A stretch of 64,000 bases of DNA from a virus: IMG/VR virus record IMGVR_UViG_3300020203_000008, positions 1 through 64,000 of that record, one strand, 5' to 3'. The notes beneath the pieces were generated by a model that ran no database searches, was not told the origin of the DNA, and worked only from the letters and a program-made list of their open reading frames with translations. This document shows positions 7,765-25,853 of the stretch, in pieces. The translations under genes and the position numbers were made by a program. Position 1 is the first letter of the stretch. Every line of letters begins with the position of its first letter.

Positions 7765-8130
7765 ATGGAAAACGTTTAGGTAGCACTCAAGGAAGGGGAT
7801 CGGACGTACATCCTTGTACGTGCTGACCTTTCTCCCGGCCAGCAGGCTGTCCAAGCTGCTCATGCCGCATTTAGCTTCTCCCTGGAGCATCCACAGATCG
7901 CTCGGGAGTGGCATAACATCTCCCAGTATCTGGTTCTTCTCGCTGTCCCAGACGTGGAGACGTTGCTGGATTTTGTGACGGATGCCTACGATCTAGGCGT
8001 TCCGTTGTATATGCAGACCGAGCCGGACCTCGGGGACGAAGCGACCGCTTTGGCGCTTGCTCCTTCTGAGGCCGTTCGTCTGCTAGTTTCTCGGCTGCCT
8101 CTCGCGTTGCGTGAGGAGGCTGTCGTGTGA
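7765..8130 (+). CDS. peptidyl-tRNA hydrolase (PTH2 type) interrupted by in-frame UAG
   Basis: From the ATG at 7765 (eight bases after AAGGAG) the frame reads Met-Glu-Asn-Val, then TAG (7777-7779), then 116 uninterrupted codons to TGA at 8128. The product has the PTH2 core: YILVRADLSPGQQ, QAAHAAFSF, YLVLLAVPDVETL and a C-terminal ALAPSEAVRLL. PTH2 enzymes cleave the ester bond of peptidyl-tRNA released from stalled ribosomes. No ATG, GTG or TTG lies in frame between the amber codon and the first core strand, so the enzyme needs UAG readthrough. A CUA-anticodon tRNA lies at 8260. An ATG at 7759 is an alternative start. A sequencing error (CAG or AAG to TAG) is possible. Confidence 0.75.
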
Positions 8131-8170
8131 GTCCTGCCGGGTGGGGGGTCATTCCCTCATCCGGCTCCAA

Positions 8171-8223
8171 GCCCCTGTAGGTATCCAGACCTACCAGACG
8201 TTTAAGTCGTCTCAGGGGCACCA
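8171..8223 (+). ncRNA. tRNA-like structure lacking a normal anticodon domain
   Basis: GCCCCTG (8171-8177) pairs with CAGGGGC (8213-8219), followed by A and CCA, as in a tRNA acceptor end. Directly 5' of the 3' strand is AGACG-TTTAAGT-CGTCT (8196-8212), which has T-arm geometry and a T-loop-like sequence. Between the acceptor strand and this arm is only a small hairpin TAGGT-ATCCAG-ACCTA. It resembles an acceptor/T-arm minihelix. A decayed tRNA gene is the main alternative. Confidence 0.5.
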
Positions 8224-8258
8224 TGGGAGAGAGGGTGTCAAAGCCCTCTCTCCCACCA
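8224..8258 (+). ncRNA. 12-bp minihelix ending in ACCA
   Basis: GGGAGAGAGGG (8225-8235) pairs perfectly with CCCTCTCTCCC (8244-8254), and T8236-G8243 extends it to 12 bp. That is the length of stacked acceptor and T stems, and the 3' strand is followed by ACCA. It abuts the tRNA-like element on one side and the suppressor tRNA on the other. It could also act as a terminator, though no U run follows. Confidence 0.4.
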
Positions 8259-8259
8259 A

Positions 8260-8330
8260 GCGCCCCTAGCACAGTGGTAGTGCAACCGATTCTAACCCGG
8301 TAGACGAGCGTTCGATCCGCTCGGGGCGCA
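8260..8330 (+). tRNA. amber-suppressor tRNA, anticodon CUA
   Basis: A full cloverleaf: acceptor GCGCCCC/GGGGCGC, D stem GCAC/GTGC, T arm GAGCG-TTCGATC-CGCTC, discriminator A, no encoded CCA. The anticodon loop TTCTAAC gives CTA at 8292-8294, preceded by T33 and followed by A37, so it should read UAG. The anticodon stem has four pairs plus an A31-C39 mismatch. The acceptor and A73 closely match the tRNA-Lys(UUU) at 23709, and U35 is shared, so lysine charging is plausible but unproven. Confidence 0.85.
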
Positions 8331-8342
8331 CACTTAAATCAA

Positions 8343-8379
8343 CGTTGACCCTGGCAGATTGCTCTGACCAGGGTCAACG
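8343..8379. terminator. hairpin between convergent transcripts
   Basis: CGTTGACCCTGG and CCAGGGTCAACG are perfect 12-base arms with a 13-base loop. The hairpin sits between the suppressor tRNA and the 3' end of a reverse-strand gene, so it may stop transcription from both sides. No U tract is present on the forward strand. Confidence 0.55.
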
Positions 8380-8414
8380 AGAGAACGAGCATTTAATATT
8401 GCTTTAGCGAAAAG

Positions 8415-8597
8415 TTACTTCTTCGCTAGCTTCTCAAACGGTGCGACTACGAGAGCAAGACCAGCAAATGCTAGGTTGCTCCAGTCGTGAACCGTGGTTG
8501 GTGCTGTGATTTGGTCGATTGCTATGAGGATGAACACAAGAGCGACGGCCAGTGCTAGCAATACCTTCGCTCCAACGATAAGCTTATACGTAGACAT
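8415..8597 (-). CDS. small two-helix membrane protein
   Basis: A 60-aa reverse-strand protein with two hydrophobic segments (about residues 10-28 and 40-53) and a basic tail, similar in shape to small holins. A near-perfect AAGGAGGAACT precedes the ATG. It is the only reverse gene in this part of the window and faces the suppressor tRNA. A holin or inner-membrane exclusion role is possible; nothing more specific is visible. Confidence 0.7.
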   Translation of the reverse strand: MSTYKLIVGAKVLLALAVALVFILIAIDQITAPTTVHDWSNLAFAGLALVVAPFEKLAKK

Positions 8598-8646
8598 AGT
8601 TCCTCCTTTCCAAAGTCAGTTTACCTTCTAGTCATCGGCAGAAACT

Positions 8647-8904
8647 ATGGATGAAAAAACCCTTAAAGCGTTTATGTTGCAAACGAAGAAGTCCAAGGGT
8701 TGCCTGATCTGGACTGGGCCGCGCTTTGGGCCGGATGGCTATGGGATCTTTAAGATGAGCGAGATTAAGATGCTGGCCCATCGTGCAATGTGGATGCATG
8801 AAAACGGCTTAGCTGATCCGAAGAACATCGTTTTTCAGACATGCAAGAACAAGGGTTGTGTGTCGATCGAGCACCTAGAGGAGCGAGATGCTCCAAGAAT
8901 TTGA
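8647..8904 (+). CDS. HNH-fold nuclease-like protein, possibly inactive
   Basis: The 85-aa protein follows the HNH_3 pattern: GCLIWTGPRFGPDGYG, AHRAMWMHENG, then CKNKGCVSIEHLEE. In active relatives the segment before the CxN motif carries the catalytic histidine (as in RHKC), but here it reads VFQTC. The zinc/structural Cys-Cys and final EHLE are kept. It may be a degenerate homing endonuclease or a DNA-binding derivative. Confidence 0.65.
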   Translation: MDEKTLKAFMLQTKKSKGCLIWTGPRFGPDGYGIFKMSEIKMLAHRAMWMHENGLADPKNIVFQTCKNKGCVSIEHLEERDAPRI

Positions 8905-8911
8905 GTTCTAG

Positions 8912-9100
8912 ATGGTTCGCTGGGGAACGTGGGTTCGTTGCAACAAACGAGGCTGCAAGGGCGAGCTGGAAGCCTTCGAGTCAGATCTTTCCAACAATGG
9001 GCGCGTCTGGTATCTTTATATCTGCAAGGTATGTGGAGAACAGGGTGATTGGACGCAGATGATGCGAGCCAGAATTGGGAAGCGGAGGTACCGTAAGTGA
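8912..9100 (+). CDS. zinc-ribbon protein
   Basis: A 62-aa basic protein with CNKRGC and CKVC motifs around residues 10-43, enough for one zinc ribbon, and a basic C-terminus. Its TGA overlaps the next GTG start. Probably nucleic-acid binding; no specific role known. Confidence 0.6.
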   Translation: MVRWGTWVRCNKRGCKGELEAFESDLSNNGRVWYLYICKVCGEQGDWTQMMRARIGKRRYRK

Positions 9101-9351
9101 ATTGTGACTTCTTCGTTGGGTTTAAGTACCGCAAGGAATCGAATAGCTATAATCGGATGAGGCTAACCGCCTCCACTGTGACTCAGACACGACCTACTTC
9201 TACTTCAAACATTGATTTCGTTGTGAAATTCTCTGTGGAAGTGCCAGATGAGTTCCTCACGCCGGAAATCAAGGTCAAGCTTGAAGCTCCGTCTGTGCAG
9301 ATGAAGCAAGTTGTCGATAATCTCCAGAAGACAGTGAAGGATCTGTCATGA
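9097..9351 (+). CDS. hypothetical protein
   Basis: An 84-aa protein from GTG 9097. It has a beta-rich stretch (DFVVKFSVEVPDEFL) and a C-terminal helix. It overlaps both neighbours (GTGA and ATGA), fitting a translationally coupled operon. Function unknown. Confidence 0.55.
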   Translation: MNCDFFVGFKYRKESNSYNRMRLTASTVTQTRPTSTSNIDFVVKFSVEVPDEFLTPEIKVKLEAPSVQMKQVVDNLQKTVKDLS

Positions 9352-9566
9352 AAGTCCTCGTTTACGTGCTTCTTGCTTTCATGCTGCTGACGGCAGGCGC
9401 GGCATTCGGCGGCTGGGTTTTCATGCTGTTCTGTGGTGCCGTGTGGTCCGAATTCCATTGGCTGGCACCAGTTAGCTACCTCCCCGCTACGGGGATCTTC
9501 CTTGCAGTCAGTGTGATGACCACTCTTTTCAGTGGCGTTCAGCAGAAAAGTCGTTCTCCGACTTGA
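9348..9566 (+). CDS. small membrane protein
   Basis: A 72-aa protein with hydrophobic segments at about residues 2-28 and 38-60, hence two probable membrane helices and a short basic tail. ATGA overlap with the previous gene. No family recognised. Confidence 0.6.
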   Translation: MKVLVYVLLAFMLLTAGAAFGGWVFMLFCGAVWSEFHWLAPVSYLPATGIFLAVSVMTTLFSGVQQKSRSPT

Positions 9567-9591
9567 CGAACATAGTCTCTTCGAATAGCAT
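9563..9591 (+). promoter_or_regulatory. sigma70-type promoter
   Basis: TTGACG (9563-9568), 17-base spacer, TAGCAT (9586-9591), overlapping the end of the previous gene and 38 bases upstream of the next ATG, which is preceded by GGAAGG. Confidence 0.55.
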
Positions 9592-9629
9592 GCTATCCAA
9601 CCTCATCGTCTGATCTTTGGAAGGATGTT

Positions 9630-10076
9630 ATGACAGAGGAAACTGCAACACCGGAACTGCCGCAGGAGACTCCTACGGCGAAGACCCCAATGAGCGACAC
9701 GCACAAGGCTGCTCTCGCCGTTGGACGCATGCAAGGTGCTACTATTCGTAAGTACCTTGAAGCCGTCAAGGCTCACCAGCCGAAGCGCGGACGTAAGGTC
9801 ACTCCAGATCAGCTTCGTGATCGGATTGCGAAGACGAATGAGAGCATCGTCTCAGCTACTCAGATTGCTCGTCTTGGTCTAATCCAAGAGCGTATCGACT
9901 TGGAAGCAGCGTTGGCTGCAAGCGCAGAGACGAACGATCTTGTTGACTTGGAGCGTGAGTTTGTTAAGGTGGCGAAGTTCTACGCTGAGCGCAAGAACTT
10001 CAGCTACAGGGCCTTCCGCGAGGCTGGCGTTCCCCCCGCCGTCCTCAAGGAAGCGGGCATCGTTCGCTCTAACTAG
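9630..10076 (+). CDS. hypothetical nucleoid-like helical protein
   Basis: A 148-aa protein with an acidic/Pro-rich N-terminus, a Lys/Arg patch (HQPKRGRKVTPDQLRDRI), a long helical segment and a C-terminus FYAERKNFSYRAFREAGV. That C-terminal pattern recurs in actinobacterial and actinophage small proteins and resembles the helical end of DNA-binding proteins. It has its own promoter and a strong terminator, suggesting high, separate expression. Exact function unknown. Confidence 0.65.
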   Translation: MTEETATPELPQETPTAKTPMSDTHKAALAVGRMQGATIRKYLEAVKAHQPKRGRKVTPDQLRDRIAKTNESIVSATQIARLGLIQERIDLEAALAASAETNDLVDLEREFVKVAKFYAERKNFSYRAFREAGVPPAVLKEAGIVRSN

Positions 10077-10107
10077 CCTCTCCGCCCGCTAGGGCGACGA
10101 TCCCGTT

Positions 10108-10141
10108 GATGGACCCCCCTGTTTCGGCGGGGGGGTCCATC
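10108..10141 (+). terminator. GC-rich intrinsic terminator-like hairpin
   Basis: GATGGACCCCCC pairs with GGGGGGTCCATC (12 bp, 10-base loop) 31 bases after the previous stop. It lacks a U tract, as is common for actinobacterial terminators. Confidence 0.7.
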
Positions 10142-10146
10142 GCGTG

Positions 10147-10175
10147 TTGACTCGGACCAGCAAGTCCTTTATCCT
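10147..10175 (+). promoter_or_regulatory. sigma70-type promoter
   Basis: TTGACT (10147-10152), 17-base spacer, TATCCT (10170-10175), immediately after a terminator and 30 bases before the oligoribonuclease ATG, which has GAAAGG as ribosome site. Confidence 0.65.
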
Positions 10176-10205
10176 TCGTCAACCGTCTCTTATCGAAAGG
10201 CTCCC

Positions 10206-10769
10206 ATGCCTGCTTCGGATTTCTTAGTTTGGGTAGATCTAGAAACTACGGGTCTAGAACCTGAAGGTGGCTCCATCCTTGAGATGGCAGTCCTAATAAC
10301 GCGTGGGAACTTGCAGATCGTTGATACGTTCTCGTACATCTTCGATCTTCCTAAGGATCCATCCGTGATGGATGACTACGTAACTGAGATGCATTCCAAG
10401 TCTGGTCTGTTGGAGGACTGCGACAAAGGTCCGACTTGGCGATGGAAGGAAGCAACTGAGAACTTTCTGGAGCGTGTTAACAAGTTCAGTGAGCCGAAGA
10501 CCGTTCCGTTGGTTGGATCAACTGTCCACTTCGATCGCTTATGGCTGAAGATGCATGTCCCGGAGATTGAGAAATGGTTCCACTACCGAAATCTTGATGT
10601 GTCCACGTTCCAGGAAGCCTTCGAGCGTTGGCTGCCCGACATCGCCGCTAAGTCGCCTGAGCCACAGAAGGTCCATCGTGCGATGGCAGACATTCGGGAG
10701 AGTTTGGCGAAGGCTCGCTACTATCGCGACTTCGTTTTGACTAAGGCTCCGAGAAGTGCAGGCTGGTGA
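10206..10769 (+). CDS. orn: oligoribonuclease (DEDDh 3'-5' exonuclease)
   Basis: A 187-aa protein of normal Orn length. ExoI motif FLVWVDLETTGLE supplies Asp11 and Glu13, the middle motif is VGSTVHFDRLWLK, and ExoIII is VHRAMADIRESLAKARYY with the catalytic His and Asp. Orn degrades very short RNAs left by RNase action and recycles nucleotides; phages use it during mRNA turnover. It heads an operon with its own promoter. The family call is firm; preference for RNA is inferred from Orn similarity. Confidence 0.85.
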   Translation: MPASDFLVWVDLETTGLEPEGGSILEMAVLITRGNLQIVDTFSYIFDLPKDPSVMDDYVTEMHSKSGLLEDCDKGPTWRWKEATENFLERVNKFSEPKTVPLVGSTVHFDRLWLKMHVPEIEKWFHYRNLDVSTFQEAFERWLPDIAAKSPEPQKVHRAMADIRESLAKARYYRDFVLTKAPRSAGW

Positions 10770-11106
10770 AGTGATAATTCTTTCGATAACCTCGGTTAGC
10801 ATCATCTTCTTCTTGTATGCACTCTGTTTGTACCGGCAGCACAGAACCTCGCGACCCAGGGCGGCCTCAGTAACGCTGTCCTCGTGGATTATTGCGCTGC
10901 CGCACGGGCTGAAGAACGTTGCAAATGAAGCCAGGCACGCGGCGTGGTGTGCAGAGCAAGAGAATCTTCTACCCTCGCATAAATGTTCTGTTTGTGGAAA
11001 ATACGAAAATCGGGATGTCCCTCATAAGAGATGCATTAAGAAGGCCAGTAAGAAAGCAATTGACAGCCTTAAAGGTACCATTAGGGATCTGAGTCATGGC
11101 GCATAA
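10756..11106 (+). CDS. membrane-anchored zinc-knuckle protein
   Basis: One N-terminal membrane helix (VIILSITSVSIIFFLYALCLY) is followed by a basic cytoplasmic part with CSVCGKYENR and a later Cys. The GTG at 10756 overlaps orn by 14 bases; the GTG at 10771 just after the orn stop is an alternative start. Function unknown. Confidence 0.55.
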   Translation: MQAGEVIILSITSVSIIFFLYALCLYRQHRTSRPRAASVTLSSWIIALPHGLKNVANEARHAAWCAEQENLLPSHKCSVCGKYENRDVPHKRCIKKASKKAIDSLKGTIRDLSHGA

Positions 11107-11293
11107 GACAAATTGGTGCCTTAAGGGTGAGCATGATTCCTGTAAAACCCGTATAAACAATGGGACACTAGAGACTAAGTGCTGGTGTACCTGTCATTCT
11201 CCTGGGTCGGATGCCGATAAAACATTAGACCAAGGAGATCGACATGAAAATCATGTTCCCCGACGAAGTGAAAAAGCTCGGACTCGCATTTGA
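11096..11293 (+). CDS. small Cys/His-rich protein
   Basis: The first 40 residues (MAHKTNWCLKGEHDSCKT and later CWCTCHSPG) contain six closely spaced Cys/His, typical of small phage zinc proteins. The start overlaps the previous gene. The 3' end overlaps the start of the next gene by 50 bases, so the C-terminus is constrained by the beta-helix gene. Confidence 0.5.
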   Translation: MAHKTNWCLKGEHDSCKTRINNGTLETKCWCTCHSPGSDADKTLDQGDRHENHVPRRSEKARTRI

Positions 11294-12413
11294 TAGCACC
11301 GGTCGTGAGGATTGGTCAAAGAGTCTTCAGACCGTTATTCAGATGGCCCCGAATGGAACACAATACGATCCCACTGTTATAAGCGTTCCTGAACTGTATC
11401 GTGGGGTATCGTCAATCGAGCCGTACCGTTCCAACGCTCGCTTCATCCACATCATCTGTGATGAGGGTGCCGGATTCCACTTTCCAACACTCGGCATCGG
11501 TGACAACGATCCCGACATCATTGCCAAGGCGATTGCTGATCCGACGATCTGCGACGTGCTTCGAGACAAGTACCGCACCCGCTTCGGTCTCGGCCCGGTC
11601 GGTGGTCATGGCTGGAAGTTCCACGGCATCCTCAAGGGACCGAAGCAGGCTGGGATGCCACTGCGTTCACCAAGCGGAACGACATCGAAGTCGCGAAACT
11701 GCCTGGAAGGCCAGCACGCGTTCTGGTCGAAGGACTTTGGTTACGAACTCACGGACCAAGACCTAGCAAACGGTGTCCACGGCTGGGACATCTGCGGAGC
11801 GACGATCACCGGCTGGTGGGGCGATGCGTTCTCGCCCGGTACGACAGTCCCGAACACTCCGCCTGCGCGTGAGATGCACGTCTACGGTGGAAAGTTTGAT
11901 GACCTTGGGCGTATGGGGATGCTGGTCCACGGTGTGCGTGGCTGGTCGTGTCGTAACGCTGAATTTGGTACGCGTATCCCATCGAGCATTATCCACGTCG
12001 AGAACGCTTCATCGAACGACGCTCAGGATCAGGTCGGTGACGGTGTGTTCGAGAACAACGTGATTCGCGGTGGGAACAACGTGTTCCACATCACCGGCAC
12101 GTTCGTCAACTTCGATGGGTTGCTCATCCGGGCGAACGAACGCTTCGACTCGTGTGTCGGTGGGCGCATCATGGTTGGTGACCGCAAGGCCGATGGCACC
12201 GCCCGCGCCCGCAACATTCAAGTGATTGACAACCTTCATCACAAGATCAAAGACGGTCATATGCTCGGTGATTACGCGAACGTGGACCACGTTCAGCATC
12301 AGCGTAACGTCGGGCCGCAGCGCAAGGGTTGGAACTTGTCACAGCTTCTGCGGACCAGAGGTGGGAAGAACGTTAATCTTACCCCGAATCAATATACATT
12401 CGTTCCGAGATAA
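11244..12413 (+). CDS. parallel beta-helix protein (second tailspike or depolymerase-like)
   Basis: A 389-aa protein with AAGGAG upstream of ATG 11244. The middle and C-terminal two thirds show the repeated short strands and Asn/Gly turns of a right-handed beta-helix (GVRGWSCRNAEFGT, VGDGVFENNVIRGGNNVFHI, NFDGLLIRANERF). The DNA is visibly GC-richer than the flanking genes, suggesting separate origin. It is far from the structural cluster, so it may be a soluble or late-acquired polysaccharide-degrading or binding protein. Confidence 0.6.
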   Translation: MKIMFPDEVKKLGLAFDSTGREDWSKSLQTVIQMAPNGTQYDPTVISVPELYRGVSSIEPYRSNARFIHIICDEGAGFHFPTLGIGDNDPDIIAKAIADPTICDVLRDKYRTRFGLGPVGGHGWKFHGILKGPKQAGMPLRSPSGTTSKSRNCLEGQHAFWSKDFGYELTDQDLANGVHGWDICGATITGWWGDAFSPGTTVPNTPPAREMHVYGGKFDDLGRMGMLVHGVRGWSCRNAEFGTRIPSSIIHVENASSNDAQDQVGDGVFENNVIRGGNNVFHITGTFVNFDGLLIRANERFDSCVGGRIMVGDRKADGTARARNIQVIDNLHHKIKDGHMLGDYANVDHVQHQRNVGPQRKGWNLSQLLRTRGGKNVNLTPNQYTFVPR

Positions 12414-12417
12414 TTGA

Positions 12418-12447
12418 TTGACTTAAGACTTGAGTTCGCTGTACTAT
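12418..12447 (+). promoter_or_regulatory. promoter of tRNA-Cys cluster
   Basis: TTGACT (12418-12423), 18-base spacer, TACTAT (12442-12447); transcription would start about five bases before tRNA-Cys. Confidence 0.55.
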
Positions 12448-12457
12448 TAAGGATCAC

Positions 12458-12528
12458 GAGTCCGTAGCCAAGAGGTTAGGCAGGTGGTTGCAACCCACCG
12501 AACGCAGGTTCGAATCCTGTCGGGCTCT
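12458..12528 (+). tRNA. tRNA-Cys(GCA)
   Basis: Acceptor GAGTCCG/CGGGCTC, anticodon loop TTGCAAC, T loop TTCGAAT, discriminator T as expected for Cys. CCA is encoded (12529-12531). Confidence 0.92.
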
Positions 12529-12583
12529 CCATTTTCTAAATCGTTTGTTTCCCTTTGCCGATCCTGTTATTATAACCACTTAG

Positions 12584-12656
12584 CGGCCAGGAGCCAGACG
12601 GTTACGGCAACGCCCTGATAAGGCGCGATTAGGAAGTTCGACTCTTCCCTGGCCGA
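12584..12656 (+). tRNA. tRNA-Ile(GAU)
   Basis: Acceptor CGGCCAG/CTGGCCG is perfect. The anticodon loop is CTGATAA and the T arm GGAAG-TTCGACT-CTTCC, with discriminator A and CCA encoded to 12659. Confidence 0.85.
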
Positions 12657-12690
12657 CCATAATCACTTTCCATGATCTGAATTGGTTACA

Positions 12691-12936
12691 ATGGCACATG
12701 ATCGCGCTGAACGTCGATACAACAGGTACGTCAAGGGCATGCATCGGATCCGTGAGGATAGGGCTGAGCACGGTTCGGATCGTTCGTGTTCATGCTTTGA
12801 CCCTGACGGCCGTACCTTTTCTTTCTTTGCAGATAATCCTCAGATGTGCTCTACGTGGTGCTGTGGTAATCGCAGAAAGTGGGAGGGTCCTTCAAGGCAG
12901 GAAATTCGTGCTGCAAGGGTTGACGAATGGATATAG
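12691..12936 (+). CDS. small conserved zinc-site protein
   Basis: An 81-aa basic protein starting MAHDRAERRYNRYVKGMHR, then CSCFDPDGRTFSFFADNPQM and CSTWCCGNRRKW. This layout (basic helix, C-x-C, CxxxCGNxRK) recurs in short proteins of phages and bacteria, often near tRNA genes. Four Cys could bind zinc. Molecular role unknown. It sits between tRNA genes and has no clear ribosome site, so a leaderless or processed mRNA is possible. Confidence 0.65.
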   Translation: MAHDRAERRYNRYVKGMHRIREDRAEHGSDRSCSCFDPDGRTFSFFADNPQMCSTWCCGNRRKWEGPSRQEIRAARVDEWI

Positions 12937-12958
12937 TCGTATAGAATAGTTGCTTCTA

Positions 12959-13033
12959 GCGCGCTTAACTCAGTCTGGCCAGAGTGTCTCTCTTACACGG
13001 AGAAGGACGGGGGTTCGAATCCCTCAGCGCGTA
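12959..13033 (+). tRNA. tRNA-Val(UAC)
   Basis: Acceptor GCGCGCT/AGCGCGT with a G-U end pair, anticodon loop CTTACAC, T loop TTCGAAT, discriminator A, CCA encoded to 13036. Only one base separates it from tRNA-Glu. Confidence 0.88.
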
Positions 13034-13037
13034 CCAA

Positions 13038-13109
13038 GGCCCTGTCGTCTATGGGTTAGGATGGAAGACTTTCAATCTTCTGAACGGGGTTCGACTCCCC
13101 GCAGGGCTA
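13038..13109 (+). tRNA. tRNA-Glu(UUC)
   Basis: Acceptor GGCCCTG/CAGGGCT, anticodon arm GAAGA-CTTTCAA-TCTTC, T loop TTCGACT, discriminator A. Confidence 0.92.
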
Positions 13110-13141
13110 CTGATAATACAAATTTATCGAAACGAGGAGTG

Positions 13142-13501
13142 ATGGGAGAGCGAAAGCTCCTATTCTCGGTCACCAAGAAGGATCTCAAGATCCAGTTCAT
13201 GCGCGGTTCCGGCAATGGTGGCCAGAACCGCAACAAACGCGACACAGCTTGCCGAATCATTCATGGTGATAGCGGGGCGGTAGGTTTTGCCCAAGAGCAC
13301 CGCACCCAACTCCAGAATAAGAAAGCTGCTTTCCTCCGTATGACGGAGACTTCCCAGTTTAAAAACTGGTGCCGGATCCGTGGTGGCCATGCCGTGCTTT
13401 CTGAGGCTGCCATCGAAGAAGCAGTAGAGCGCCTCATGGCTCCGGAGAATATCAAGATGGAGGTTCTGGAGGATGACAAGTGGGTTGAAGTCCCCCTATG
13501 A
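13142..13501 (+). CDS. GGQ-domain peptide-release-factor-like hydrolase
   Basis: The 119-aa protein contains RGSGNGGQNRNKRDTACRII, with GGQ at residues 26-28. This is the catalytic signature of class I release factors and of the rescue hydrolases ArfB/YaeJ/ICT1, which cleave peptidyl-tRNA in the ribosomal A/P site. It has no stop-codon-recognition domain. The downstream HRTQLQNKKAAFLRM matches the conserved helix of RF-1 domains. The basic ArfB tail that probes empty mRNA channels is not evident; the C-terminus is acidic. ATG 13142 has GAGGAG two bases upstream. It follows tRNA-Glu directly. Confidence 0.8.
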   Translation: MGERKLLFSVTKKDLKIQFMRGSGNGGQNRNKRDTACRIIHGDSGAVGFAQEHRTQLQNKKAAFLRMTETSQFKNWCRIRGGHAVLSEAAIEEAVERLMAPENIKMEVLEDDKWVEVPL

Positions 13502-13552
13502 AGTGGATGTCGAGATCAAGAACGAGTTAGATTCTGTCCCCGAAAGGGCGAT

Positions 13553-19225: not shown

Positions 19226-19368
19226 CCGACCCCGTAGTCGTGCGTCGAATCTCAGTGCCAGCACAGTGGTATCTCGGCGCTCACGGTGACCCGATTGCTC
19301 AGTTCGACTATCTCATTCTCATTTTGATGGCGGACGGTTCAGTCCGATGGGAGCGTGACCATGAGTGA
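19222..19368 (+). CDS. 48-aa small protein, GC-rich block
   Basis: GTG/TGA overlap with the previous gene. Product has a beta-like pattern (VVVRRISVPAQWYLGAHGDP, FDYLILILMADGSVRW). Coding is supported by position and composition. Confidence 0.45.
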   Translation: MTDPVVVRRISVPAQWYLGAHGDPIAQFDYLILILMADGSVRWERDHE

Positions 19369-19932: not shown

Positions 19933-19948
19933 GTGAGGGAGTCAGACG

Positions 19949-20188
19949 ATGAGCAAACCACTCGGCCCTGGGGGCCTCGAAGACGTGCACGACTGGCGCA
20001 AGAGAGCCCTCGCAGCGGAAGCCGACCGTGACTGGCTTCGAGAAGCCCTCCGAGCCCTGGCTGAGGAGGAGAAGGCCCGGCATATCGTGAACTGCACTTG
20101 CGGTCTGATGTGGGACGAACACAATCTTGCGTGTCCGCTCCGGGAGGGACATGCAAGTACGAAACAAGGAGATGTGAATGGAATATGA
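19949..20188 (+). CDS. hypothetical protein with C-x-C/C pair
   Basis: 79 aa: helix with DRDWLREALRALAEEE (block motif), then CTCGLMWDEHNLACP. Last member of the GC-rich block; overlaps the epimerase start by 11 bases. Confidence 0.5.
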   Translation: MSKPLGPGGLEDVHDWRKRALAAEADRDWLREALRALAEEEKARHIVNCTCGLMWDEHNLACPLREGHASTKQGDVNGI

Positions 20189-21155
20189 CCGGCTAGGTGT
20201 ACCCGAAGCCAAAGTTACGAGAAAACGTGTTTTGTTAACTGGTGGTTCTGGCTTTGTCGGGGCTCATGTCCTAGACCATCTCCTTAATACCACCGATGCC
20301 GAAGTGACTGTTTTAGCCTCCTTCCGGCATCGTGGAGATCCAAGGCGACTTAGTAAAAGCCTTAATTCTAGGGTCGAGATACTGACCTGCGACCTAGCCG
20401 GAGACCTACCAGATCTTGGAACCTTTGACACGATCCTGCATTTAGCATCCGATAGTCATGTGGATCGTTCGATCCAAAATCCGGTCTCCACGATCGAGAA
20501 TAATGTTCGGATTATGCTCACCATGCTCGAATATGCCAGAGCACACCCACCCGAGACCTTCCTCCTGTTCTCCACAGATGAGGTCTACGGCGATTCCAGC
20601 CCCCTAGTGGACGAGACACAGGCATTGCGTCCATCTAACCCCTATGCGGCTTCTAAGGCCGCTCAGGAGATGATCTCAATTGCTTACTGGCGCACCTACA
20701 GAGTGCCAGTGATCATCACGAACTCTTCGAACGTTGTCGGATCCGGTCAGGACCCAGAGAAGTTCATTCCGAAGATCATTCGTGCCATCAAGGCAGGGGA
20801 GACAATTAAGGTTCATGCAGCCAATGGTGTAGTTGGGATGCGTTATTGGAATCCAGTTCAGAATGTGGTTACTGCTCTTGATGTGGCTTTAGAAGCAGGA
20901 CCAACTTTTAAGTCTCACGGTCCAAATCGTTATCACTTGCCGGGTGGCGAGGAACACTCTAATCTTGATGTAGCTCGCATGGTGGCTGCCGCTCTCAGTA
21001 TGACCTTAGACTACGAGGTTATGGAGGTAGGAGATCTACGACCTGGATATGATCAGCGTTACCCGAAGATCGAAGGCAAAGAGCTGATCGAGTTGGGTTG
21101 GACTCCGGCTATAACCCTGAAGGAATGCATTGATAGGCTCGTCCGAGACTCTTGA
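20178..21155 (+). CDS. NAD-dependent sugar-nucleotide epimerase/dehydratase
   Basis: 325-aa extended short-chain dehydrogenase. Glycine-rich loop LTGGSGFVGAHV, FSTDEVYGDSS with catalytic Asp-Glu as in dTDP-glucose 4,6-dehydratases, and YAASKAAQEM as the YxxxK motif. It would act on a nucleotide sugar in the cytoplasm, perhaps feeding the glycosyltransferases at 46503-56429 although it is 26 kb away. ATG 20178 has AAGGAG upstream. Base composition returns to the window average here. Confidence 0.85.
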   Translation: MEYDRLGVPEAKVTRKRVLLTGGSGFVGAHVLDHLLNTTDAEVTVLASFRHRGDPRRLSKSLNSRVEILTCDLAGDLPDLGTFDTILHLASDSHVDRSIQNPVSTIENNVRIMLTMLEYARAHPPETFLLFSTDEVYGDSSPLVDETQALRPSNPYAASKAAQEMISIAYWRTYRVPVIITNSSNVVGSGQDPEKFIPKIIRAIKAGETIKVHAANGVVGMRYWNPVQNVVTALDVALEAGPTFKSHGPNRYHLPGGEEHSNLDVARMVAAALSMTLDYEVMEVGDLRPGYDQRYPKIEGKELIELGWTPAITLKECIDRLVRDS

Positions 21156-21176
21156 CAGTGGGTCTAGGCTTAGCGC

Positions 21177-21314
21177 ATGCTCAGATCACAGTGGGATCTC
21201 TACACCGTAAGAGACCGTAACGGAAACGTCAGAGGATTTGGTAAATGGTGGCAGGCGAACAAGATCGCCAAGGCAGGGAACTGGAAGATAGTCCGCTACC
21301 TGAAGACCCGTTGA
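21177..21314 (+). CDS. 45-aa basic protein
   Basis: Open frame MLRSQWDLYTVRDRNGNVRG... with Trp/Lys-rich middle. Its TGA overlaps the following TTG start. Supported only by packing. Confidence 0.4.
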   Translation: MLRSQWDLYTVRDRNGNVRGFGKWWQANKIAKAGNWKIVRYLKTR

Positions 21315-21466
21315 TCTGGTGGGGTAGATGTAACTGTCACATATGGCCTATAGTTCGATACTATCGAACATCTTACTGTAGGCGTTGTCGAATAGAACCG
21401 GCTAGTTGTGAAATGCCAGAAGACGGGCGGGCGAAATGTCTCCACGAAGGACCATGCTTTGGCTAA
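21311..21466 (+). CDS. small Cys-rich protein
   Basis: From TTG 21311 the product has CNC, CRRC and two further Cys in 51 residues, a zinc-type pattern. A longer version from ATG 21245 is possible but would overlap the previous gene. Confidence 0.4.
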   Translation: MIWWGRCNCHIWPIVRYYRTSYCRRCRIEPASCEMPEDGRAKCLHEGPCFG

Positions 21467-21650
21467 GGTAACTTTCGTTGAGTGCGACAATCCGGCCTGT
21501 TCATCTATGTCTGACAATGAAGGCATGGATTGGTTTAAGATTACGGGGAGGCCGATTTGGAAAGATCTTAAGTGGCAGGAGGTTTTTGCCTGCTCGACAA
21601 CCTGTATCTTACCGGCTTTAATGGCCCATAACGGACAAACGAAAACGTGA
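21459..21650 (+). CDS. zinc-ribbon-like protein
   Basis: 63 aa from TTG 21459 with CDNPAC and, near the end, CSTTC, fitting a small treble-clef or ribbon. Start uncertain. Confidence 0.45.
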   Translation: MAKVTFVECDNPACSSMSDNEGMDWFKITGRPIWKDLKWQEVFACSTTCILPALMAHNGQTKT

Positions 21651-21668
21651 CCAACGTAACATAAGCTC

Positions 21669-21696
21669 TTGCGTGAGCCGAAAGATTCTGTAGACT
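21669..21696 (+). promoter_or_regulatory. candidate promoter with leaderless start
   Basis: TTGCGT (21669-21674), 16-base spacer, TAGACT (21691-21696). The ATG at 21706 is ten bases after the -10 box, so almost no leader is left. Confidence 0.45.
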
Positions 21697-21705
21697 GGGG
21701 GTACC

Positions 21706-22158
21706 ATGAGTCAGCTTCGAACGCTGATGATCTTAGGATTCTCAGCGTTTTTTCTGGACCAGATCACTAAGTATGCCGCTTACGGCCTGGGTTGGACGTA
21801 CTCTAACGCGTCCGGCCCGCTAGGCATTTTCGAAGACGCAGATCTTTTCTATGTGGGATTGATTGCCTTGGCTGTTGCAGTCGTGATCTGGTCATACCAC
21901 GTCATGGGCTCAGACTTGGGCGAAATGACTGGTCTAACTCTTGTAGCTGCTGGCGTGGCAGGAAATTTGATCGATTTTGCCGTTCACCGTGCAGTGTGGG
22001 ACTGGATTCCGCTACCTGGCACGAACATCGTATTTAACATTGCTGATGTCCTCATAATCTTTGGGCTTTTTGTTTGGATTTTTCTGCGCGAACCTTCGAA
22101 GGGAGGTGCCAATGAAGGAACTACTCAAGCTCAGGGTGACCAAGCCCAAGAAGTCTGA
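21706..22158 (+). CDS. lipoprotein signal peptidase-like protein (LspA family)
   Basis: 150 aa with four hydrophobic segments and the LspA motifs in order: FLDQITKYAA (Asp18), SNASGPLGIF, AGNLIDFAVHR and VFNIADVLIIFG. Both aspartates of the membrane aspartyl-protease dyad (GN-x-x-D and FN-x-A-D) are kept; the usual Arg after the first (GNLIDR) is Phe. LspA cuts the signal peptide from diacylated prolipoproteins. A phage copy could mature a phage lipoprotein or shield from LspA inhibitors; both are inference. Confidence 0.75.
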   Translation: MSQLRTLMILGFSAFFLDQITKYAAYGLGWTYSNASGPLGIFEDADLFYVGLIALAVAVVIWSYHVMGSDLGEMTGLTLVAAGVAGNLIDFAVHRAVWDWIPLPGTNIVFNIADVLIIFGLFVWIFLREPSKGGANEGTTQAQGDQAQEV

Positions 22159-22213
22159 TGCAGTGAAGGCAGCAACAGTTGCTGTTATTGCCCCTGCTGT
22201 CAGGCGTAGGTAA
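22112..22213 (+). CDS. 33-aa basic/hydrophobic peptide
   Basis: A strong GGGAGGT precedes ATG 22112 inside the end of lspA. Product is MKELLKLRVTKPKKSDAVK followed by AATVAVIAPAVRRR. The good ribosome site is the main support. Confidence 0.5.
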   Translation: MKELLKLRVTKPKKSDAVKAATVAVIAPAVRRR

Positions 22214-22218
22214 CAGTG

Positions 22219-22248
22219 CGGGGACCGCGGCTTCGGTCGCGGTCCCCG
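22219..22248 (+). terminator. terminator-like hairpin
   Basis: CGGGGACCGCG and CGCGGTCCCCG form a perfect 11-bp stem with loop GCTTCGGT, followed by an A-rich stretch rather than U. Confidence 0.65.
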
Positions 22249-22290
22249 AGAAAACAGAAGGAACGATTATGCAGAAGAAACGGAGCACAG

Positions 22291-22875
22291 ATGAACGAAC
22301 TCGACAAGCTGAACGCTGAACGGCAGGCAGCACACGAACACGCTCAGGCCGAACGGATGCAGCGGGCCACCACCGTCCGCCCGAAGCCGAAGGGCCGGTG
22401 GCGGCTCATCGCTGCGGCGGTCGTCGTCGTGCTCGGCGTGACCGCCGTAGCCACACGGGCCGACGCCTGGCCGGTAGCGGGTCTCCGTTGGGGTGACCGG
22501 GCCGGAACGGCGGCGGGTACTGCGATCGTCGCAACGCCGGGAAGCGTCGGGTCTGCGACAGGGACTGCGCTCGTTGCTCGTGCCCGGTGGATCTTCGGGC
22601 AGTCATGCCTCGACAGTTTCACGCTCCCGAACATCGGTGGCAACTACGTGCTTTACGCCGCTGACGTGATGCGGTCGTGCAGCTACAACCCTTACGGGCT
22701 GTCGGTGGTGTCACTCGGGTACAGGGCCAACGGAACGCCGAGGATCTTCACATACTCGATTGTGCTCCAAGCCAACGGCGTGACGCACCACGACTTCTGG
22801 ACCGGAGCACCTGCCTGTTGGCCCGCAGACAGGCCGTCGGACCCGAATCCAGTGTGCCCGATTGGGGGATGGTGA
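22291..22875 (+). CDS. membrane-anchored or secreted hypothetical protein
   Basis: 194 aa. Charged helix 1-35, then a hydrophobic segment RLIAAAVVVVLGVTAVATRA ending ADAW, which can serve as a signal anchor or cleavable signal. The exported part has four Cys (for example QSCLDSF, APACWPADRP, NPVCPIGGW) that could form disulfides. GC-rich. Possibly a surface protein made during infection. Confidence 0.6.
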   Translation: MNELDKLNAERQAAHEHAQAERMQRATTVRPKPKGRWRLIAAAVVVVLGVTAVATRADAWPVAGLRWGDRAGTAAGTAIVATPGSVGSATGTALVARARWIFGQSCLDSFTLPNIGGNYVLYAADVMRSCSYNPYGLSVVSLGYRANGTPRIFTYSIVLQANGVTHHDFWTGAPACWPADRPSDPNPVCPIGGW

Positions 22876-22961
22876 ACAACCCGATGTAAAGAGTCCCGTC
22901 CGGGCTCTTGCCCGCGGCTCGGTGAGTCAGAACCGCACGTCGTAACAACTTCCCGGTCCCG

Positions 22962-23003
22962 TGCGCTTCACCTCGCCCAGCCCCCCCTGGCGGGTGAAGC
23001 GCA
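22962..23003 (+). terminator. long hairpin upstream of tRNA array
   Basis: Perfect 11-base arms TGCGCTTCACC and GGTGAAGCGCA enclose a C-rich loop. It probably separates the previous transcript from the tRNA operon. Confidence 0.5.
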
Positions 23004-23129
23004 GGGGGCCGGGGGTGAGCTCAACCTCGCAGTGTGCCTGCGGGGTCAGTGCCAGATGTGGCTTCAGTGCTCCCCCTGGCTCCTTCCCCACTCGATAATG
23101 TGATTACAACGAGCCCGGACGTAAATACC

Positions 23130-23158
23130 TTGACATGGATGTCGATACCTGAGATAGT
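23130..23158 (+). promoter_or_regulatory. promoter of the main tRNA array
   Basis: TTGACA (23130-23135), 17-base spacer, GATAGT (23153-23158); start of transcription is expected about five bases before tRNA-Glu(CUC). Confidence 0.6.
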
Positions 23159-23169
23159 TATTTGGATAC

Positions 23170-23243
23170 GCCCTCGTGGAGGAATGGCTAGACTCACTGC
23201 CCTCTCACGGCAGATACTGCGGGTTCGAGTCCCGTCGAGGGTA
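23170..23243 (+). tRNA. tRNA-Glu(CUC)
   Basis: Acceptor GCCCTCG/CGAGGGT, anticodon arm CTGCC-CTCTCAC-GGCAG, T loop TTCGAGT, discriminator A. Confidence 0.88.
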
Positions 23244-23254
23244 CGCAAGTACAT

Positions 23255-23328
23255 ACGGGTGTAGTTCCAATTGGCAGAACGGCTGCTTCCAAACCAGCGC
23301 GCTGAGGGTTCGAATCCTTCCACCCGTG
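23255..23328 (+). tRNA. tRNA-Trp(CCA)
   Basis: Acceptor ACGGGTG/CACCCGT, anticodon loop TTCCAAA, discriminator G as in bacterial Trp tRNAs, CCA encoded to 23331. The anticodon stem has a C31-C39 mismatch. Confidence 0.88.
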
Positions 23329-23350
23329 CCATGTTCGCAACCTATATGCA

Positions 23351-23439
23351 ACCGACATCGAATCAGAAGCCCGGTAAAACGGGCTTGTCGGTCGCGCATG
23401 GGGACCGACTGTAAGACGCAGGGCCATATACCCGCCCTG
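23351..23439 (+). ncRNA. three consecutive hairpins with an alternative pairing
   Basis: AAGCCCG/CGGGCTT (23367-23386), GTCGGTC/GACCGAC (23387-23409) and CAGGGC/GCCCTG (23419-23439) follow one another between two tRNAs. ACCGAC at 23351-23356 can also pair with GTCGGT at 23387-23392, which would exclude the second hairpin. Confidence 0.4.
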
Positions 23440-23446
23440 TGACCTT

Positions 23447-23519
23447 TCCGGGGTGGCGCAACTGGCAGCGCAGCGGCTTCTGACGCCGAAGGCTGAAGGT
23501 TCGAACCCTTCCCCCGGAG
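23447..23519 (+). tRNA. tRNA-Gln(CUG)
   Basis: Acceptor TCCGGGG/CCCCGGA, anticodon loop TTCTGAC, T loop TTCGAAC, discriminator G as expected for Gln. Confidence 0.88.
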
Positions 23520-23531
23520 CGCAATGCATAT

Positions 23532-23602
23532 TCGGGAGTCGTCTAAAGGCAGGACGTGAGTTTTTGGCACTCACTATGAGGGTTCGATTCCTTCCTCCCG
23601 AG
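23532..23602 (+). tRNA. tRNA-Gln(UUG)
   Basis: Acceptor TCGGGAG/CTCCCGA, anticodon arm TGAGT-TTTTGGC-ACTCA, discriminator G. Confidence 0.88.
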
Positions 23603-23616
23603 CGCAATACAAATTT

Positions 23617-23689
23617 GGCTCCGTAGCTCAGAGGACAGAGCAATGGCTTCCGAAGCCATGTGTCGCAGGTTCAAATCCTGCCGGGGTCA
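23617..23689 (+). tRNA. tRNA-Arg(CCG)
   Basis: Acceptor GGCTCCG/CGGGGTC, anticodon arm ATGGC-TTCCGAA-GCCAT, T loop TTCAAAT. Confidence 0.9.
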
Positions 23690-23708
23690 CGAAATAGATT
23701 GACAATGA

Positions 23709-23780
23709 GCGCCTCTAGCTTAACGGTAGAGCAAGTGACTTTTAATCACAAGGTTCAGGGTTCGAATCCCTGGGGGCGTA
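23709..23780 (+). tRNA. tRNA-Lys(UUU)
   Basis: Acceptor GCGCCTC/GGGGCGT, anticodon loop CTTTTAA, T arm CAGGG-TTCGAAT-CCCTG, discriminator A. Its acceptor is almost the same as that of the CUA suppressor at 8260. Confidence 0.9.
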
Positions 23781-23797
23781 CTACATTTGAAAACCGA

Positions 23798-23870
23798 GCA
23801 CCCGTAACTCAGTGGGTAGAGTAGCTGCCTCTTAAGCAGATTGTCGTCGGTTCGAACCCGACCGGGTGTA
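23798..23870 (+). tRNA. tRNA-Lys(CUU)
   Basis: Acceptor GCACCCG/CGGGTGT, anticodon loop CTCTTAA, T loop TTCGAAC. Confidence 0.9.
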
Positions 23871-23962
23871 CCGCCAGGATGCAACATGATGTTCGTCCTG
23901 ACACTTGTATGTTGATAACTGAATATGGAAGCGACGAGCGTAGGTATGTTACTGCGCTCTTT

Positions 23963-24035
23963 GGGGCCTTAGTGATAACGGCAAGCACTCCTGCTTTGCA
24001 CGCAGGGAGTCGGGGTTCGATTCCCCGAGGCTCCA
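23963..24035 (+). tRNA. tRNA-Ala(UGC)
   Basis: Acceptor GGGGCCT/AGGCTCC with a G3-U70 pair, the Ala identity element; anticodon arm CCTGC-TTTGCAC-GCAGG; discriminator A. Confidence 0.92.
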
Positions 24036-24173
24036 CTTTGTTCGCCTCCTGTCGTCATTACCCTCGCCTTTCTATTAGGTGGAGCCTCTGGTGGCGGTGG
24101 CTACTCCAGAAATCATGGAGAGCACAGGAGCACGCGCTCGCCTATGTATTAGGAGTAGGGAGGTGAATTATTC

Positions 24174-24188
24174 CCTGATAATACCAGT
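24174..24188 (+). promoter_or_regulatory. operator-like palindrome, site 4 (degenerate)
   Basis: CCTGATAATACCAGT matches the operator consensus CCTGGTATTACCAGG at 12 of 15 positions. It lies 80 bases upstream of the gene at 24269, inside the tRNA array. Confidence 0.35.
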
Positions 24189-24268
24189 TGATACTTCATA
24201 GTTGCCCAAAGGATGCTTGACGGGGCGGTATATTCGCCTCATCACATTAACCGTACCTGGGGATAACT

Positions 24269-24529
24269 ATGAAGAAGGTTTACCGGCTAGTGATCGACTG
24301 GGAATACGAAGAAGATCAGACTCTTCTTGTGCAGGCTGATCAGATAGTTGATGAAGCCTGGGGGATCCTCGATCCAGACTGCGACGGCCAGGAAGATTGT
24401 GCTATCTGGTGGTCGATGGAAGGCAGGGATGTCACGGAGGAATACTTAATGTTGGAGCAAGGATGGAAGAAAGACGAGATCGACGGGTTCTTTGATACCA
24501 TTAAGTTCAAGGACTATCCGAGATCTTGA
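24269..24529 (+). CDS. acidic hypothetical protein
   Basis: 86 aa, strongly acidic (WEYEEDQTLLVQADQIVDEA, then LDPDCDGQEDCAIWW). ATG 24269 has TGGGGAT upstream. It is enclosed by tRNA genes. Function unknown. Confidence 0.6.
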   Translation: MKKVYRLVIDWEYEEDQTLLVQADQIVDEAWGILDPDCDGQEDCAIWWSMEGRDVTEEYLMLEQGWKKDEIDGFFDTIKFKDYPRS

Positions 24530-24535
24530 TAACTT

Positions 24536-24607
24536 TCCTGGGTAGTTCAGTGGCAGAACGATCCGCTGTTAACGGATATGTCGGGGGTTCGAATCCCTCC
24601 CTGGGAG
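24536..24607 (+). tRNA. tRNA-Asn(GUU)
   Basis: Acceptor TCCTGGG/CCTGGGA, anticodon arm ATCCG-CTGTTAA-CGGAT, discriminator G as in bacterial Asn. Confidence 0.9.
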
Positions 24608-24718
24608 CTTGGGTGCCAGACAGTAATGTTGGACGCAATATTATTGGGACAAGTTGGCTAAGAGCGGAGAACCCCGCGCCACCATCCTTACAGGGTGGAA
24701 GCGGTTAGTAACCTGCCC

Positions 24719-24883
24719 ATGAGATCCTTATACGTTTACATTTGTATTGACGACAGATACGGTTACGAGAACGTAGACTCTTTGATTCAAGAAGGTTGGG
24801 TAGTTCACGGTTTCTTTACTATGACCGATGCTGCAAACACCACAATTTTTGTGATGTGCAACTCCATGGTGGCTATAGCTTAA
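24719..24883 (+). CDS. 54-aa hypothetical protein ending inside tRNA-His
   Basis: MRSLYVYICIDDRYGYENVD... is a compact alpha/beta-looking protein whose last five codons and TAA stop lie inside tRNA-His. tRNA 5' processing would remove the stop codon from the mRNA. Coding is moderately supported by composition. Confidence 0.45.
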   Translation: MRSLYVYICIDDRYGYENVDSLIQEGWVVHGFFTMTDAANTTIFVMCNSMVAIA

Positions 24884-24940
24884 CGGTAGAGTCCTTGGTT
24901 GTGATCCAAGTGTGTGCCAGTTCGAATCTGGTTAGCCACC
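24868..24940 (+). tRNA. tRNA-His(GUG)
   Basis: Extra G-1 opposite C73 as required for His, acceptor GTGGCTA/TAGCCAC, anticodon arm CTTGG-TTGTGAT-CCAAG, CCA encoded to 24943. Confidence 0.92.
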
Positions 24941-24944
24941 CCAA

Positions 24945-25015
24945 GTCGGTATAACCTAATGGTAGGGTAGGAGTTTCATAAGCTCTTTGTGCAGGTTCAA
25001 CTCCTGCTACCGATA
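24945..25015 (+). tRNA. tRNA with CAU anticodon (elongator Met or Ile2)
   Basis: Acceptor GTCGGTA/TACCGAT, anticodon loop TTCATAA, T arm GCAGG-TTCAACT-CCTGC, discriminator A. The paired 1-72 position argues against an initiator. It begins one base after the CCA of tRNA-His. Confidence 0.8.
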
Positions 25016-25039
25016 CTCAGTTGAAGCTCAAGGAGAAGT

Positions 25040-25369
25040 ATGCCAGCACTATCAGATACACTAAAGGAATATTTCGAGAGTGCAGTCCAAAAGGACGTAA
25101 CTCCCGATGAGATCCTCTGGGACGTTACAATCGGTCCAGGTGAAGGTGGCCAACCAACAGCATTTATCTTCTTCTGGATGAAAGCAGCCTTGATCAATCA
25201 GCTACTTTCGTTTACGATGGTCATAGCAAACCCTCCTCTTGTAAAGCAGGAGGATGTGGATAGACTGGTAGCTCAGGCTGTCGAAGCAATGCGGAAGCAG
25301 CGTACTGAGCAACTCAACCAGGGAGCAATTGAAGTTCCTGGTGCCCCTTACACTGGTGGGGAAGTTTGA
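25040..25369 (+). CDS. hypothetical protein
   Basis: 109 aa with AAGGAGAAGT before ATG 25040. It has a hydrophobic central patch (TAFIFFWMKAALINQLLSFT) and a helical tail ending GAIEVPGAPYTGGEV. A peripheral membrane or virion role is possible; no family recognised. Confidence 0.6.
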   Translation: MPALSDTLKEYFESAVQKDVTPDEILWDVTIGPGEGGQPTAFIFFWMKAALINQLLSFTMVIANPPLVKQEDVDRLVAQAVEAMRKQRTEQLNQGAIEVPGAPYTGGEV

Positions 25370-25476
25370 CAATTTCGAGGAGAACCCCGGATCAGTCCTA
25401 GGACACTGTTCGGGAAGTATCCAAGACGGGAGCTAGGGTCCCCGATTGATAAGCAGACGGAAGTTCTGCACCCCTT

Positions 25477-25853
25477 GGGTCTGACAGGCTTCGATTGTGT
25501 TATCCGAGGTATGTTTCGCTGGTCGTCCAGAGTAGGGACGTTAAAGAACTCACAAGCCTTAACTGGCAACGCAATGGACAACATCGACGCTGAGTACGAA
25601 GCCCTTGTGGCTTCTTACGAGGGTGCCCTCGTCTAACGAGGGTCGTCTGGGGTAGGTCACCTCGCCTTATTATCCAAAGTGACCCCGTGCCCGGTCGGTT
25701 AACCGTGGCCCGTTCCCTAGAGCTAGGGTGGCACCCCCGAAGGGGCTGACTTTCAGGAAAGACTGAAAATATGGGAGCCATCCCTAAATGGCTATACCAG
25801 TAGACGGACTATTTACGAAGCACAAGACCCCGGTTCGATTCCGGGCAGATCCA
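25477..25853 (+). ncRNA. ssrA: tmRNA (transfer-messenger RNA)
   Basis: The 5' end GGGTCTGACAGGCTTCGATT pairs its first seven bases with CAGATCC (25846-25852) just before the discriminator A. The 3' domain has a normal T arm CCCGG-TTCGATT-CCGGG. A tag frame runs from about GGC 25565 to TAA 25634-25636, encoding a 23-residue peptide that starts Gly-Asn-Ala-Met-Asp and ends Glu-Gly-Ala-Leu-Val. A -Ala-Leu-Val end is also known, from memory, for mycobacteriophage tmRNAs. A hairpin follows the tag stop as in helix 5. tmRNA frees ribosomes from stop-less mRNAs. The resume codon choice rests on an A four bases upstream. Confidence 0.85.

Follow-up and report, generated by a model that had tools for sequence, protein, structure and literature searches.

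The DNA analysed here, which we call the window, is a stretch of 64,000 nt (positions 1 to 64,000 of IMG/VR virus record IMGVR_UViG_3300020203_000008, 136,572 bp in full) and contains 38 tRNA genes, a tmRNA and a gene of the PTH2 family of peptidyl-tRNA hydrolases. We found that the PTH2 frame is interrupted by an amber codon shortly behind its start, with a tRNA of anticodon CUA encoded just downstream. Translation of PTH2 is very probably gated by this dedicated phage suppressor tRNA. At the level of sequence, the proposal is supported by the stop in the leader, the lack of a usable start beyond it, the cognate tRNA, matched changes of stop and anticodon among relatives, and a suppression-friendly base behind the stop (+4). 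We infer from these features that readthrough occurs and that PTH2 output is tied to the charged suppressor tRNA, as well as what purpose the gate may serve. An earlier sequence-only reading of the window, which had grouped PTH2 with other translation-related genes, overlooked the interrupted frame, the more interesting feature.

Results

An amber codon in the leader of PTH2

The PTH2 locus comprises the following elements:

7706-7734, plus strand: candidate promoter read from the sequence, TTGACA (7706-7711), a 17-nt spacer and TACACT (7729-7734)
7751-7756, plus strand: Shine-Dalgarno-like AAGGAG ahead of the PTH2 leader, read from the sequence
7759-8130, plus strand: PTH2 gene, from ATG 7759 (or 7765) through its TAG (Pfam, fold match, no in-frame start for 58 codons past the leader TAG)
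7777-7779, plus strand: in-frame amber codon (TAG), the proposed gate, leader codon 7, +4 base G (a leader stop is kept in 73 of 125 phage PTH2s)
8260-8331, plus strand: amber-suppressor tRNA, anticodon CUA, labelled tRNA-Pyl by ARAGORN (ARAGORN; Rfam tRNA, 60.2 bits)

Behind the AAGGAG, the frame reads ATG GAA ATG GAA AAC GTT TAG GTA GCA CTC. The next in-frame ATG, GTG or TTG lies 58 codons beyond the TAG; in the AlphaFold model, the start-free stretch spans the first strand of the PTH2 fold and the helices behind it. Thus, a whole PTH2 made from a standard start would require readthrough of the TAG. The CUA tRNA lies 130 nt downstream of the gene. We called a gene gated when a stop stands between its start and the conserved domain and no other start is available, an arrangement found in the window and in its relatives. 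The closest named relatives of the PTH2, and of an RF-1-domain protein encoded elsewhere in the window, belong to cluster C mycobacteriophages (about 45-55% identity); megablast of the region against phage records gave no match.

Positions 7759/7765 to 8130 matched Pfam PTH2 (PF01981, E 1.5e-8). The AlphaFold model (pLDDT 92) resembled the archaeal PTH2 structures 3erj and 1wn2 in Foldseek comparisons (E about 5e-7, TM 0.74-0.78; 3erj E 4.7e-7, TM 0.78). For PTH2, RF-1 protein, tmRNA and tRNA-CUA alike, the Pfam, fold and Rfam matches were above chance level. We take the active-site residues of Sulfolobus solfataricus PTH2 to be a lysine (K18) and an aspartate (D86). Aligned to solved PTH2s, the phage proteins are without this usual pair: Q, L or Y stands at the position of the GK lysine, and the aspartate is replaced by a glutamate that sits in an invariant EPD motif. 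Other residues may serve in catalysis. A PTH2-profile scan of bacterial genomes returned no relative.

Leader stops recur in phage PTH2 genes

IMG/VR profile searches, together with loci collected earlier, gave 169 PTH2-hit sequences, which formed 125 clusters at 90% identity. For scoring of the 125 loci, three dubious cases were removed and four fusions of an HD domain to PTH2 were added; the neighbourhoods fetched around the loci were mostly limited to 4 kb. Among these non-redundant phage PTH2s, 73 of 125 carried a leader stop, which was codon 2, 3, 4 or 5 in 54 of the 67 gated loci with a scored leader. Already the first relatives combined the same anatomy with unrelated leader sequences, such as M-TAG-V in cluster C phage IkeLoa and V-TAG-V in Myrna. 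Further relatives begin with MTTNTNPKAPHY-TAG-G, MT-TAG-THDT, MTPT-TAG-IST, MTFA-TAG-IPS, MT-TAG-GHV and MSEP-TAG-IHR, and PTH2 genes of huge phages with MS-TAG-IYK, MNN-TAG-INE, MT-TAG-ITK, MTH-TAG-VET and MAH-TAG-NEK. The anatomy was also present in isolates, namely enterobacterial, Acinetobacter, Erwinia, Xanthomonas, Stenotrophomonas and cluster C phages. About 190 cluster C isolate records were at least 90% identical over the region from start to TAG, the codons themselves being read in a few of them.

As a control, we counted stops in conserved regions of other genes that lack a start. This yielded TAG 6, TAA 20 and TGA 20, versus TAG 61, TAA 1 and TGA 5 for PTH2, and the control hits were mostly frame shadows or alignments beginning ahead of the true start. 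No gene of the 136-kb record other than PTH2 had a convincing leader stop. A second candidate at 55623 was rejected, given that a glycosyltransferase ATG with its own Shine-Dalgarno sequence follows at 55673. The 'strict' cases L133 and L162 (both TGA) and L100 (TAG) were dropped as well, since no convincing upstream start and no cognate suppressor was found; L133 also sits in an ungated PTH2 clade. An extra amber codon inside the PTH2 domain was seen at loci L014, L038, L150, L057, L116 and L156.

In some phages, a gene for an HD-domain protein adjoins PTH2 or is fused to its N terminus (L039:4986-5573, L166, L158, L080, L082, L037, which is XacN1, L047, L053 and L054). An in-frame amber codon interrupts nine of 12 such HD genes, in most cases at the leader. 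The HD-PTH2 fusions of XacN1 and RAS14 begin MK-TAG (MK-TAG-TIKAMK... in XacN1). The HD domain is weakly similar to the HD part of the CCA-adding enzyme.

Stop and anticodon match

A suppressor tRNA was found for 54 gated loci, in the fetched stretch for all pairs except one, which came from a record search. Their stops and anticodons paired as TAG-CUA (50), TGA-UCA (3) and TAA-UUA (1), with no mismatch (permutation P=8e-7, a descriptive value that ignores shared ancestry). In the PTH2 tree, TAG/CUA relatives surround the TGA and TAA cases, and the window PTH2 falls into a well supported clade of 13 in which every member has TAG with CUA. Further records and phage isolates added matching pairs and no mismatch. 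Three checks followed once the rule had been seen. In the 68-kb record of TGA-gated L067, the UCA tRNA was the only tRNA found. Isolate Atu_ph07 carries a PTH2-like gene reading MIGEHF-TGA-INYEELG... (weak family match, E 1.7e-4), and its single reported suppressor tRNA is UCA (PMC6102473). Six TAG-gated records with no suppressor within 4 kb were searched further; CUA was located elsewhere in four of the six, UUA or UCA in none.

A CUA tRNA lay within 1 kb of PTH2 at 62 of 125 loci, versus 6 of 125 for the next commonest anticodon, and all suppressors (99 of 99) were on the PTH2 strand. Given this shared direction and the usually short distance, suppressor tRNA and PTH2 probably come from one transcript. 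Two different CUA tRNAs near one PTH2, often in tandem, occurred at L006, L008, L010, L026, L028, L038, L126, L143, L152 and L158.

Stop context and promoters

The base following the leader stop was a purine in 61 of 62 gated cases. The same position was a purine after 126 of 228 later leader codons (55%; P=1e-12 against the gated cases) and after 127 of 246 ordinary TAG ends (52%; P=3e-14). Amber suppression in E. coli is favoured by a purine at +4 (PMC6266110).

At ten gated loci, nearly all from the actinophage group, the start codon follows the end of a TTGAC(A)/TAnnnT pair at a distance of 4-8 nt, where shuffled sequences would give 0.04. This points to a leaderless mRNA whose first nucleotides are the start codon. 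If so, the GTG behind the TAG in cluster C phages, although annotated as start, is unlikely to serve as one. The window PTH2, unlike these loci, has an mRNA leader with a Shine-Dalgarno sequence.

RF-1 protein and tmRNA

Two further features are listed apart from the proposed gated module:

13142-13501, plus strand: RF-1-domain protein with GGQ motif (Pfam RF-1, E 2.7e-16; PHROG 3122, E 1.4e-36)
25477-25855, plus strand: tmRNA (Rfam RF00023, 73.3 bits; ARAGORN tag GNAMDNIDAEYEALVASYEGALV)

The RF-1 protein shares with ArfB a GGQ motif within an RF-1-like domain (GSGNGGQNRNKRD). While the C-terminal tail of ArfB is positively charged (PMC8012679), the C terminus of the phage protein is acidic and without such a basic tail (last 30 residues AIEEAVERLMAPENIKMEVLEDDKWVEVPL). 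The tmRNA has the tag frame and the tRNA-like domain of its class: the tag ends ...EGALV, and the third acceptor pair, read from the sequence, is an alanine-type G-U. The cluster C tmRNA tag has the same final ALV (...AAALV in IkeLoa). A GGQ protein of the same RF-1-domain type, related to that of the window, is encoded about 0.75 kb upstream of the ungated PTH2 of L106, a distant phage.

PTH2, the GGQ protein, tmRNA and a suppressor tRNA had been singled out by the sequence-only reading, and Pfam, Rfam and ARAGORN bore out the presence of all four. Their expected co-occurrence across actinophages held for cluster C mycobacteriophages: IkeLoa carries PTH2, tRNA-CUA, tmRNA and RF-1, and PTH2 and RF-1 each match 193 Mycobacterium phage records. 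It did not extend to one linked set over the 125 PTH2 loci, whose fetched neighbourhoods contained tmRNA in seven cases and RF-1 in three. The co-occurrence of the four genes is correct and already known. Those parts of the literature that we consulted remark on Pth, RF-1 and tmRNA together in cluster C tRNA arrays in 2018 (PMC5966550) and interpret jumbo-phage PTH2 as acting in rescue once tRNAs are cleaved (PMC7824862); the earlier observation is therefore not new.

Discussion

We propose that ribosomes would initiate at the leader start (AUG 7759 in the window; on an apparently leaderless mRNA in several actinophages) and meet the UAG, codon 7 in the window, where release factor 1 would normally end translation. 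Once made, matured and charged, the tRNA-CUA that the phage encodes on this strand, a short way downstream, would read the UAG, and full PTH2 would be produced. A feedback can be added to this scheme: suppressor tRNA that is lost at the gate in the form of short peptidyl-tRNA might be freed by PTH2, which would so raise its own synthesis. The idea has its appeal, as early elongation is prone to drop-off and PTH clears the products (PMC10192219), but the two active-site changes make it less certain that phage PTH2 acts on this substrate; we rate it as rather unlikely and keep it outside our confidence in the gate itself. Taken together, the comparisons suggest a conserved tRNA-operated switch in many distantly related phages. 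Its most far-reaching form would be a widespread mechanism that keeps a single conserved gene, PTH2 (in some phages together with its HD partner), shut by a leader stop, so that nothing but a dedicated suppressor tRNA from the same transcript can open it; the two would make up a self-reinforcing tRNA-recycling circuit, with stop and anticodon co-changing in evolution. As a whole, this form is possible and somewhat on the doubtful side.

Several results weigh against the gate. Fifty-two of the 125 PTH2s have no leader stop, 35 of these 52 nevertheless have a suppressor tRNA nearby, and suppressor presence as such was not higher at gated than at ungated loci (P=0.43). No suppressor lay within 4 kb of 19 TAG-gated loci, and in two of the six records searched further, both of them fragments, none was found in the stretches read. 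Nearest-class assignment of the diverse suppressor tRNAs pointed to no single amino acid or tRNA class that they resemble. Finally, the cluster C GTG directly behind the TAG would be a possible start on an mRNA with a leader.

Among the ungated loci, a clade of about 19 mostly has a CUA tRNA directly behind an ordinary PTH2 gene (members include L070, L079, L081, L084, L092, L097-L099, L103, L106, L107, L113-L116 and L120; L116 has an amber codon inside PTH2). At L007, L011, L041, L044 and L096, an ungated PTH2 stands beside ochre-type UUA suppressor tRNAs, and no leader TAA was seen. A search for leader stops in neighbour genes of the ungated suppressor-bearing clades gave nothing consistent.

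Could the leader stop act without the suppressor? A short start-stop open reading frame might position ribosomes that restart after the stop at ATT, GTA or ATA, or at GTG in cluster C, with the tRNA being unrelated. The leader TAG is most often followed by ATT (13) or GTA (8), and annotators do use the adjoining cluster C GTG as gene start. Such reinitiation is nonetheless very unlikely: the type of stop corresponds to the suppressor anticodon in every pair found, the TGA-UCA and TAA-UUA pairs included, and the codons behind the stop differ from locus to locus (AAC, GGC, ACT, GAA) and for the most part are no start codons. In cluster C and its relatives, moreover, the inferred promoter would put the transcript start on the ATG or GTG before the TAG. 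Still less probable, to the point of being nearly negligible, is that TAG is read as sense throughout the genome (code 15) and the PTH2 amber is one among many. Additional ambers inside PTH2 or its HD-domain neighbour at some loci, and the presence of PTH2 in recoded Lak phages, would fit such a reassignment. Against this, TAG serves as an ordinary stop in both genomes checked: 18 of the window phage's 134 predicted genes and 8 of IkeLoa's 56 annotated genes finish on it, and neither genome therefore uses code 15. A single convincing leader-stop gene in 136 kb, a stop near the start in nearly all cases and the existence of TGA and TAA versions argue in the same direction.

Two further readings concern what the genes are for, and we regard both as unlikely, to about the same degree. 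According to the sequence-only reading, PTH2, the GGQ protein, tmRNA and the suppressor tRNA form one ribosome-rescue programme against mRNA or tRNA cleavage. The joint presence in cluster C phages, the rescue role ascribed to jumbo-phage PTH2 in the consulted part of PMC7824862, and an RF-1 gene near PTH2 in L106 and L110 lend partial support to a shared function, while in the neighbourhoods fetched elsewhere RF-1 and tmRNA are seldom near PTH2 and the RF-1 protein lacks the basic ArfB tail. Nor is a separate rescue function needed for the suppressor tRNA, whose job is better seen in decoding PTH2 itself; the leader stop explains its link to PTH2. Alternatively, the gate might mainly be a sensor. 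PTH2 would then be produced either upon impairment of release factor 1 or of termination, or as long as phage tRNAs still mature properly, for instance under attack by tRNA-cleaving host defences. Readthrough does depend on the balance between release factor and charged suppressor, and the weak resemblance of the HD partner to the HD part of a CCA-adding enzyme hints at a tRNA-end function. Cleavage of the suppressor tRNA would, on the other hand, lower PTH2 exactly when rescue is wanted. Gating of PTH2 by its own suppressor tRNA is the reading that we prefer.

The PTH2 leader stop offers a concrete, testable target for the suppressor tRNAs of standard-code phages, including XacN1 and Atu_ph07. 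The authors of the XacN1 study sought a target for its two CUA tRNAs and found none (PMC5852040), as did those of Summit for its suppressor tRNAs (PMC9022506); no specific suppressor target was assigned for Atu_ph07 (PMC6102473) or RsoM2USA (PMC8504454). It also bears on annotation, in which this conserved phage gene is often overlooked or begun at the wrong codon. Serratia phage BF and the Erwinia pEa_SNUABM phages (L203 is pEa_SNUABM_19) have no annotated gene where PTH2 matches, and the deposited PTH2 is truncated, with a start inside the domain, in GAP32 (L208), Kaldavass (L043) and Atu_ph07 (L209); gene finders that halt at the leader stop would be expected to leave just this pattern. If the gate works, a translational switch set by a tRNA would be common to phages that infect Actinobacteria and several genera of proteobacteria, and could then serve as a genetic tool.

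Comparison with known systems

Cluster C tRNA arrays and jumbo-phage PTH2 have been described before. The consulted parts of these papers note PTH2, RF-1 and tmRNA (PMC5966550) and a rescue factor (PMC7824862), and report neither the leader stop nor its link to the suppressor tRNA. Code 15 phages (crAss-like, Lak) are alike in that UAG is assumed to be decoded as sense by a phage-encoded tRNA during infection of a standard-code host, in their case too a CUA suppressor. Here, in contrast, TAG remains an ordinary stop in the genomes checked (window phage and IkeLoa), and one near-start codon of one conserved gene, sometimes also of its HD partner, is concerned, with TGA-UCA and TAA-UUA versions. 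Pyrrolysine and selenocysteine decoding likewise employ a dedicated stop-anticodon tRNA for particular genes, and ARAGORN applies the labels Pyl or SeC to the phage tRNAs, in the window tRNA-CUA by anticodon only. The phage stop, however, lies in a variable, non-catalytic N-terminal leader, and the suppressor tRNAs are diverse. Archaeal and eukaryotic-type PTH2 agrees with the phage proteins in fold and family; the latter differ by Q, L or Y for the GK lysine, by Glu for the aspartate and by their proposed leader-stop-dependent translation. Lambda bar and other minigenes, finally, are very short start-stop open reading frames tied to peptidyl-tRNA hydrolase biology, as is the leader described here, but the phage PTH2 minigene shares its reading frame with the hydrolase and comes with a cognate suppressor tRNA.

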